Assembly (NCBI GenBank): GCA_015068905.1
Contig: SVJQ01000001.1
Coordinates: 1-64,000, forward strand
Length of the DNA stretch: 64,000 nucleotides
Direction of reading: 5' to 3'
Source: Oscillospiraceae bacterium
GTDB lineage: Bacteria; Bacillota; Clostridia; UBA1381; UBA9506
Positions 9,769 to 32,474 of this stretch are shown here, piece after piece. Within the stretch, counting starts at the first letter, position 1. Each line of letters begins with the position of its first letter. The notes under the pieces were generated by a model. It saw only the letters and a program-made list of their open reading frames with translations. It did not search any database and was not told the DNA's origin. The position numbers were made by a program, and so were the translations under genes.

Positions 9769-10407
9769 TTGTATTATGTATTTGATATGGACGGGGTTTT
9801 GGTGCGGTCAGCATCAGTAACGATTCATGCTGCACAGTTGATTTTAGAAGAATACGGCATCACGGCAGAGCCTTCTGAATTTGCCCCCTTTATCGGTGCA
9901 GGGGAGGCTCGGTTTATCGGCGGTGTAGCAGAAGCCCATGGCCTTACCTATGAGCCGGTTATGAAAGAAAAGCTGAATAACAAGTATGCTGAAATTGTTG
10001 GCGATGAACTGCCACCCTATCCAAGCGGCAAAAAGGTTTTAGAAAAGCTCAGGGAGCAAGGAGTGAAATTTGCTTTGGCTTCCAGCGCGGACATGGTTAA
10101 AATTAAAGCCAATTTAGGTGCGGCAGGGATTCCTCTTGATTGGTTTTCTGCCATTGCCTCAGGGGAGGATGCCGAACGCAAAAAACCGGCGCCGGATATT
10201 TTTCTGGCGGCGGCAAAACGTTTGGGGGCTGACCCAAAGGACTGCCTTGTGGTGGAAGATGCCATCAACGGCATTGAGGCGGCACGGTCGGCAGGGATGA
10301 AGGTTGTGACTATTACCTCTTATTTTGACAGAGAAACTCTGAAGAAGCACCAGCCCGATGCAGTCATTGATGATTTGATGGAGCTTTTGGAGGTAGAAAT
10401 AAAGTGA
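9769..10407 (+). CDS. HAD-family phosphatase or beta-phosphoglucomutase-like protein
   Basis: A 212-residue HAD hydrolase of the subclass with a helical cap. Motif I is FDMDGVLV near residue 5 (nucleophile and acid Asp), motif II is LASSAD, and motifs III/IV are the Lys in ERKKPAPDIF and VVEDAINGIEAARSAGM. This pattern fits beta-phosphoglucomutases and small sugar-phosphate phosphatases; the substrate cannot be told from sequence. The start is TTG at 9769 with AAAGGA nine bases before it. Its stop TGA shares a base with the ATG of the following transposase gene, so the two are translationally coupled, an unusual pairing. Confidence 0.9.
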   Translation: MYYVFDMDGVLVRSASVTIHAAQLILEEYGITAEPSEFAPFIGAGEARFIGGVAEAHGLTYEPVMKEKLNNKYAEIVGDELPPYPSGKKVLEKLREQGVKFALASSADMVKIKANLGAAGIPLDWFSAIASGEDAERKKPAPDIFLAAAKRLGADPKDCLVVEDAINGIEAARSAGMKVVTITSYFDRETLKKHQPDAVIDDLMELLEVEIK

Positions 10408-10922
10408 TGCATGATTTGCCAAAACGGAAACCAACAAGGTTGCATGGATATGATTATAGTTCGCCAGGTGTGTATTTTGTGACGGTGTGTACAAAAGGGC
10501 GCAGGGAGTTGTTGTCAAAAATTGTAGGGACCGGCGTCCTCGACGGTCCAAAGAACTTTCTGACATCTTATGGTGAAATTGCGCATAAACATTTGGTGGG
10601 TATGAGCGATTTTTATGATAATGTTAAAATAGATAAATTTATTATTATGCCAAATCATATTCATTTATTGATTCATATACATGAAGGGAAAAGGGGAAAC
10701 GGACCGTCGTGGACGCCGGTCCCTACGAATTCCTTAATTGTACGACTTATCAGTACCTTTAAAAGATTTTGCAACAAAGAGTATGGTGAAAATATTTGGC
10801 AACGTTCATTTCATGACCATATTATCCGCAATGAGCAGGATTATCTAAAAATATGGAATTACATAGACACAAACGCCGATAAGTGGGAACAGGATTGTTT
10901 TTATGTAAAAGAAAAGGAGTAG
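10407..10922 (+). CDS. RAYT / IS200-type Y1 transposase
   Basis: A 171-residue HUH single-strand transposase of the REP-associated family. The metal-binding HUH motif is MPNHIHLLI, and the catalytic tyrosine is probably in NEQDYLKIWNYID, followed by DKWEQD near the C-terminus. ATG 10407 overlaps the stop of the HAD gene; GGAGGTAG at 10389-10396 supports it, and a GTG one codon earlier is possible. The coding sequence contains two near-perfect inverted copies of a 26-bp sequence (10524-10549 and 10701-10726), translated as VGTGVLDGP and GPSWTPVPT. Such proteins normally act on REP-like hairpins, so the internal repeats may be substrate-like sequences. Confidence 0.88.
   Translation: MHDLPKRKPTRLHGYDYSSPGVYFVTVCTKGRRELLSKIVGTGVLDGPKNFLTSYGEIAHKHLVGMSDFYDNVKIDKFIIMPNHIHLLIHIHEGKRGNGPSWTPVPTNSLIVRLISTFKRFCNKEYGENIWQRSFHDHIIRNEQDYLKIWNYIDTNADKWEQDCFYVKEKE
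10524..10549 (+). repeat. Left arm of 26-bp inverted repeat inside the transposase gene
   Basis: The arm begins GTAGGGACCGGCGTCC and ends GACGGTCC. Its reverse complement matches 10701-10726 at 25 of 26 positions, although both lie in coding sequence. Confidence 0.9.
10701..10726 (+). repeat. Right arm of 26-bp inverted repeat inside the transposase gene
   Basis: The arm begins GGACCGTC and ends GGACGCCGGTCCCTAC, the reverse complement of the left arm with one mismatch. The arms are separated by 151 bases. Confidence 0.9.
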
Positions 10923-10943: not shown

Positions 10944-10968
10944 AGGACTGATAGAAAAATTGTGCAGA

Positions 10969-11026
10969 TTGGACAAACTGAACCCGTAGGCGTGCTTTGG
11001 CACGCTGAGAGGTGAAGTTTGTCCAA
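10969..11026. repeat. Long imperfect palindrome between transposase and hydrogenase genes
   Basis: TTGGACAAACT (10969-10979) pairs exactly with AGTTTGTCCAA (11016-11026), and an inner perfect hairpin GCGTGC-TTTG-GCACGC lies at 10990-11005. There is no T-run, so it is not an ordinary terminator. Its position next to a RAYT gene suggests a REP-like or transposase-recognised element. Confidence 0.7.
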
Positions 11027-11044
11027 AACACAAGGCATAAAAAT

Positions 11045-11078
11045 AGAAGGAATTTGTCAAACGACAAATTCCTTCTTT
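11045..11078. terminator. Bidirectional terminator downstream of hydA
   Basis: A 14-base perfect stem (AGAAGGAATTTGTC with GACAAATTCCTTCT) closes on an AAAC loop (11059-11062). It is flanked by T-rich sequence and lies about 95 bases beyond the hydA stop on the minus strand. Confidence 0.75.
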
Positions 11079-11173
11079 AATTTTGAACTATTTTAATGTT
11101 CGCAGCCTAAACCAAAGGCTTTTATATGTTTCGTTTGCCTTGTGTGCTGTACACATTTTGCTACAGTTCTATA

Positions 11174-32227: not shown

Positions 32228-32262
32228 AAAGGATGCAGAAAACAGTGTCGTAGAACAAGTTG

Positions 32263-32289
32263 GGGAGGGTTTTTATGCCCTCCCTTTTT
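32263..32289 (+). terminator. Terminator after the PFL-family gene
   Basis: GGGAGGG pairs with CCCTCCC around an 8-base loop and is followed by TTTTT. Confidence 0.8.
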
Positions 32290-32299
32290 ATACTATTTT

Positions 32300-32326
32300 C
32301 GGGAGGGCGCGGAGACCCTCTCCTAC
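32300..32326. repeat. REP-like element ending in GTAGGAGAGGG
   Basis: On the minus strand the sequence runs GTAGGAGAGGGTCTCC to CCTCCCG, GC-rich against AT-rich flanks. It shares the GTAGG terminus with the arms inside the RAYT gene and with the element at 32376. Confidence 0.55.
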
Positions 32327-32328
32327 GA

Positions 32329-32474
32329 AAAAGAGGCTGTCTCATTAAGCATTAATTGTGAATATACAAGCTTTTGTAGGGGGCGCATTTATGCGCTCCG
32401 CGGAATGGATAAATCCATTCCCTACGATTTGTGTATATATTCATCAATATGCAATGAAAGAGACAGCCTCTTTT
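32329..32474. repeat. Nested palindromic (MITE-like) element
   Basis: The outer arms AAAAGAGGCTGTCTC (32329-32343) and GAGACAGCCTCTTTT (32460-32474) are exact inverted repeats. Inside them an AT-rich imperfect repeat (about 32351-32367 and 32433-32448) surrounds a 50-bp GC-rich core, 32376-32425, that runs GTAGGG...CCCTAC. The core holds two hairpins (GCGCAT/ATGCGC and GGAATGGAT/ATCCATTCC). The outer stem, with its T-run, could also end the minus-strand HAD transcript. Confidence 0.75.

Follow-up and report, generated by a model that had tools for sequence, protein, structure and literature searches.

Why should a transposase gene carry a near-perfect inverted repeat within its own reading frame? 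The question is raised by a gene in the window (i.e., the whole 64,000-nucleotide stretch of Oscillospiraceae DNA analysed here) that encodes a RAYT (REP-associated tyrosine transposase, TnpAREP), a type of nuclease believed to spread copies of small hairpin repeats (REPs) through genomes. An earlier note on this DNA had proposed, among other readings, that the two arms of the repeat are REP copies that inserted into the gene and became coding. We examined the gene, its product and its relatives with this proposal and its alternatives in view.

The RAYT gene of the window and its product

The RAYT / TnpAREP coding sequence spans positions 10404-10922 of the plus strand and specifies 172 amino acids from a GTG codon at 10404. 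An alternative in-frame start, ATG at 10407, overlaps the TGA (10405-10407) of the upstream neighbour, a gene on the plus strand (9769..10407) named as that of a putative HAD-type hydrolase by inspection of its sequence and also present in a genome of the same genus, G007. As the RAYT start and the upstream stop overlap in TGATG (10405-10409), translation of the two genes may be coupled.

The HUH motif of the protein (H85-I-H87, 10656..10664, plus strand) lies between the two arms of the repeat, and Y153 (10860..10862, plus strand), within the motif YIDTN, is the predicted catalytic tyrosine on the basis of its Y---N motif. Residues H85, H87, Y153 and N157 were invariant in an alignment of 42 sequences. 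The protein was matched by the NCBIfam model NF047646 (REP_Tyr_transpos) with an E-value of 1.6e-17 and a score of 63.7 bits, which is under the curated cut-off of 80 bits. Pfam gave no match for the window protein itself, and its Y1_Tnp family was matched by 28 of the 42 family members. Escherichia coli TnpAREP (4er8) was the top solved structure in a family-profile search (5.1e-11) and also came first by fold when an AlphaFold model of the window protein (mean pLDDT 79) was used as query (2.3e-7). Residues W132, Q133, D138, H139 and R142 (10797..10829, plus strand) align with W94, Q95, E100, H101 and R104 of 4er8, which contact GTAG in the E. coli enzyme according to the main text of PMC6006769. 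These contact positions are, by this alignment, mostly conserved in the window protein, with E100 replaced by D. An HUH motif with a single tyrosine in a Y---N motif, a family and structure match, and an association with GTAG-hairpin REPs are thus found together, and the assignment of the gene as a RAYT / TnpAREP is supported. An origin of the gene from a plasmid or phage was rejected, as only distant matches (about 30-34% identity) were found. One distant RAYT relative (34% identity) lies at 109-591 of MT839559.1, an unannotated 4.8-kb phage record from human faeces.

Two REPs within the reading frame

The inverted arms were found exactly where the earlier note had placed them, at 10524..10549 on the plus strand and 10701..10726 on the minus strand, and are complementary at 25 of 26 positions. 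They extend to 31 nt at 90% (10519-10549 and 10701-10731), with 151 nt between them. Both are translated, as VGTGVLDGP (residues 41-49) and GPSWTPVPT (residues 100-108), and flank H85-I-H87 as had been claimed. Chance would be expected to yield about 2e-9 such inverted 26-mers per gene of RAYT length.

What had been overlooked is that each arm alone consists of GTAG and then a hairpin whose loop has four bases. Because each arm has a GTAG foot and a hairpin of its own, we identified it as a REP: the first reads GGACCGGCGTCCTCGACGGTCC on the plus strand, and the second, which is inverted, reads GTAGGGACCGGCGTCCACGACGGTCC on the minus strand. Model R1 scored the two arms at 36.2 and 42.8 bits, respectively, values to be read in light of the fact that the model was built from the window arms together with related arms.

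The arm region has a fold z-score of -7.0 as DNA and -8.6 as RNA. Folding of the mRNA, a check suggested in the earlier note, gave a very stable predicted structure in which arm 1 is paired with arm 2 (-84.4 kcal/mol). This structure is what would be expected if the repeat acted at the RNA level, with the mRNA forming either one long helix or a pair of hairpins that limits translation or is bound by the RAYT as a form of autoregulation. By contrast, the hairpins lie deep within the coding sequence and away from the start site, no match to the arm region was found in Rfam, and arms that differ from one another each keep their own hairpin at the expense of arm-to-arm pairing (see below), which disfavours the long helix as the conserved unit. 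We consider control at the RNA level improbable.

Conservation of the hairpins among relatives

The arms were compared with those of related RAYT genes from metagenome assemblies of Clostridia, including gut Clostridia, of which 64 genes were examined for embedded REPs. A REP followed by an inverted REP (order +,-) was found inside 47 of the 64 genes, usually with one REP type per gene. Alignment of the RAYTs, which had been recommended as a means to recognise the arms as in-frame insertions, revealed arms in most relatives and their absence from a few, with the rest of the protein conserved. At the two sites shared with the window gene, embedded hairpins of at least eight types were distinguished by sequence. 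Peptides encoded by arm 1 include VGTGVLDCP, VGEGLCALP, VGQGLAPAE, VGDDAYIVP and VGAIHELPE, among others, and each is accompanied by the reverse complement of its coding sequence at the second site.

These comparisons bear on whether VGTGVLDGP and GPSWTPVPT are functional parts of the protein, with the DNA repeat as a by-product. A similar peptide is indeed found among close relatives of the same type. The peptides are, however, completely different between types, the reading frame of arm 2 varies among REP types, and one or both arms are missing from some relatives in which the rest of the protein is conserved. Where the earlier note would have given up its proposal had relatives kept the same peptides and lost the repeat, the reverse was observed: the peptides of relatives differ and the DNA hairpin persists. 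A function for the peptides as such is, in our judgement, very improbable.

The hairpin is conserved by compensated change. In an alignment of 25 distinct arms of the long type, both partners vary in 7 of 9 stem pairs, and pairing is kept in 91.6% of cells compared to 71.2% in shuffles. Among 66 genes in which both arms occur, arm 1 and arm 2 differ at 16 stem pairs, of which 13 remain paired within each arm, a result somewhat favoured by data selection in that only arms with a detectable hairpin were counted. The arm 2 of a gene also fits its own arm 1 far better than do permuted partners (1468 vs 723 +/- 41). An origin of the inverted repeat by chance or codon usage was rejected on the basis of the expectation of about 2e-9, the stem covariation and the permuted-partner test. 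Since stem changes are compensated within each arm, the conserved unit is the single DNA hairpin and not the peptide or the arm-to-arm helix.

REP type also goes with the protein core. Genes of the same REP type in different genomes have a core identity of 73% compared to 38% for genes of different types. The ends of the protein barely differ in this respect (72% identity within a REP type vs 63% between types).

Embedded versus flanking REPs

The density of REPs in the set of 64 genes is 2.91 per kb within the gene compared to 0.34 and 0.22 per kb in the two 1-kb flanks. In a hairpin scan, the 1-kb flanks of the window gene contained no REP, and covariance models likewise detected none nearby. 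Three genes lack an embedded REP (L042, L072 and L085) and have 4-5 flanking REPs each (Fisher p 0.0013, with n = 3 genes and kinship ignored); the flanking REPs of L042 and L072 form inverted pairs on both sides. A phylum-wide sample showed the same tendency: an embedded pair without any REP in the flanks was found in one gene (L210), several REPs in the flanks but none within the gene were found in six (L207, L212, L213, L215, L216 and L224), and four (L209, L211, L217 and L218) contain REPs in both places. REPs thus tend to be either embedded or flanking, and embedding seems to take the place of flanking, because REP pairs tend to flank those RAYTs that have none inside.

The main rival to a role for the embedded pair is passive insertion, by which abundant REPs land near or in RAYT genes and two loops of the protein tolerate nine extra residues, so that the pair has no function in the gene. 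In the AlphaFold model, the arm-encoded stretches are loops of low pLDDT (about 67 and about 44) and are predicted to be disordered; both stretches are absent from E. coli TnpAREP in the alignment to 4er8. Tolerance of this kind is also consistent with in-frame tandem duplication of embedded REPs or REP-containing units, which lengthens the loop in four genes (L027, L033, L040 and L186), and with the presence of in-frame REPs in many unrelated genes (Di Nocera et al. 2013, PMC3733652). Passive insertion fits poorly, however, with the retention of the +,- pair, usually of one type, in most of the genes examined, with the compensated changes that keep the hairpins intact, with the tracking of the protein core by REP type, and with the tendency of embedded and flanking REPs to be mutually exclusive. 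We therefore regard passive insertion into tolerant loops as unlikely, if still the strongest of the alternatives.

REPs elsewhere in the genomes

Copy numbers of REPs were determined by pattern and model searches. In the genome of the window (1.73 Mb in 35 contigs, 87% complete), a search for the arm sequences, as proposed in the earlier note, had a divided outcome: the exact type of the window was found only in the gene itself, together with one decayed copy (C21:17191), and the REP of a second RAYT has multiple copies. The view that the window arm is a multicopy REP in the genome that carries it is therefore unsupported at the exact type, and there is no sign that the window RAYT now spreads REPs in this genome, since the exact type is otherwise absent apart from the decayed copy. 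The second RAYT (L059, C7:20669-21175) carries the embedded REP GTAGGGCAGGGGCTTGCTCCTGCC, of which 10 exact copies were detected, two in the gene and 8 elsewhere, compared to 0 for the reversed control. Other REP types are present in the same genome, often as inverted pairs a few bases apart.

Within the window, the intergenic region 32259-32425 contains two REP pairs, one at about 32259 (plus strand, with a decayed foot) and 32300-32326 (minus strand), the other at 32376-32400 (plus strand) and 32401-32425 (minus strand). The second pair (32376-32425) is located mid-way in a longer imperfect palindrome (about 32331-32474) with the ends AAAGAGGCTGTCTC, which is MITE-like in appearance.

In the genomes of relatives, REPs of the embedded types are dispersed. 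A RAYT with window-type REPs in genome G025 is accompanied by 8 further copies outside the gene, 6 of them exact. By a hand tally of four REP types across 61 genomes, dispersed REPs of the same type were found in 10 of the 18 genome-type pairs with a matching RAYT compared to 24 of the 226 pairs without (p 1.5e-5, kinship ignored). A dispersed copy was absent in 8 of the 18 pairs with a RAYT, and REPs without a matching RAYT occurred in 24 pairs; both kinds of mismatch could be caused by gene loss or incomplete assemblies. REPs detected by model R1 were present in 27 of the 30 genomes with a RAYT and in 6 of the 31 without (p 2e-8, with embedded copies counted and kinship ignored), or in 25 of 30 when G006 and G017, whose embedded copies are seemingly their only ones, are left out. 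One small genome, G012, harbours at least six RAYT genes (L064, L154, L156, L161, L164 and L172), which belong to four REP types.

Taken together, the location of the arms at two loops, their presence in most relatives but not in a few, and the dispersal of their types in the genomes of relatives agree with the proposal that the arms are REP copies turned coding. That the arms are REPs embedded in the RAYT gene, and that REPs of the cognate type lie within it, are real and well-supported findings.

Core deletion and proposed cassette exchange

The HUH core has been lost by deletion between the arms in several relatives, and a double-foot REP is left in the clearest cases. At the locus of G007 orthologous to that of the window, where both sides align, including the upstream HAD-type gene, a RAYT remnant was found that lacks the HUH core and whose two arms have fused to form the double-foot REP GTAGGGGCGATTCGTGAATCGCCCCTAC. 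A comparable in-frame collapse was detected in G072, a collapse joined inside the hairpins in G050, and a partial collapse in L047. Slippage suffices to explain these events, as the 5' half of each near-palindromic arm is repeated directly at the 5' half of the other arm. The middle of the G007 remnant is nearly identical to that of a second remnant on the same contig and the outer parts are not, which indicates cassette conversion.

An empty orthologous site that would define the ends of the element was not obtained among the genomes compared: G002 is without the RAYT but differs downstream, and the sequence of G005 has diverged too far. Downstream of the RAYT gene, a segment of about 228 bp (10944-11171) contains imperfect inverted repeats and has no counterpart at the orthologous locus of G007; a portion of this segment matches L205, in inverted orientation.

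Discussion

REPINs, pairs of a REP and an inverted REP with their GTAG feet outward, were reportedly described by Bertels and Rainey in 2011. The explanation that we consider probable is that the RAYT has its REPs within the reading frame and not next to the gene, with two opposite REPs in two loops around the HUH core, such that the gene resembles an enlarged REPIN with the nuclease core as spacer. The protein would bind and cut the same type of single-stranded GTAG hairpin that its gene carries; judged from sequence, the embedded REPs are likely the enzyme's own target. Embedding would keep nuclease and substrate together during exchange of the cassette by gene conversion or horizontal transfer, and instability would be a side effect, since slippage between the arms can delete the core and leave a double-foot REP. 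The fuller evolutionary reading is offered more tentatively: in this clade, the embedded inverted pair would have replaced flanking REPs, and enzyme and target would form a cassette (a REPIN with the core as spacer) that is exchanged between loci as a unit, such that REP type and core are set jointly, and whose collapse destroys the enzyme but leaves a double-foot REP.

Like a REPIN, the window pair is inverted with GTAG feet outward, and other REPs of the window genome form such short pairs; the spacer here is, however, about 150 nt and codes for the nuclease core. The gene shares with the canonical E. coli REPtron (4ER8) the HUH/Y1 nuclease fold, GTAG-hairpin REPs and most GTAG-contact positions, but the REPs flank the gene in E. 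coli and are inside it here.

In-frame REPs in RAYT genes have already been reported for TnpAREP subclass 2.4 (Quentin 2018, PMC6006769). As described in the main text of that report, subclass 2.4 / RAYT group 4 resembles the genes studied here in its NH[IFV]H and WQ motifs, long GTAG REPs, in-frame internal REPs and double-foot REPs. Its insertions are generally between HuH and Y, with flanking REPs in addition, whereas the genes studied here add a second site before HuH, have an inverted pair and have few flanking REPs. The Y motif of subclass 2.4 is given there as YIxNNP; that of the window is YIDTNA, with YIENNP or YIDTNP in some relatives, and NHIH and WQ are present in the window protein. 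Intragenic REPs and the Rickettsia RPEs (PMC3733652) are likewise palindromic repeats translated in frame in apparently functional genes, but they occur in varied genes and mostly at different sites, whereas here the sites are fixed and the host gene is that of the presumed enzyme for the repeat. For TnpAREP from two further groups, REP recognition and cleavage have been described (Corneloup et al. 2021, PMC8266576). An inverted pair at two fixed sites flanking the core, spread of this pair through a clade with swapping of types, a tendency of the pair to replace flanking REPs, and collapses were not found in the literature consulted, which included the main text of PMC6006769; Figure S10 of its supplement may show part of this. 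Embedded REPs per se are thus already known, and what is apparently new is the occurrence, throughout a clade, of an inverted pair at two sites in place of flanking REPs.

To our knowledge, the recognition of individual REPs by their RAYTs and the origin of new REP families are understood only in part. Deletion between the arms offers a concrete route to double-foot REPs, and the arrangement also offers one by which enzyme and target are exchanged jointly. Should the enzyme act on the REP embedded in its gene, each such gene would state its target in its own sequence, and the family would provide dozens of natural enzyme-target pairs from which a recognition code could be read and tested.
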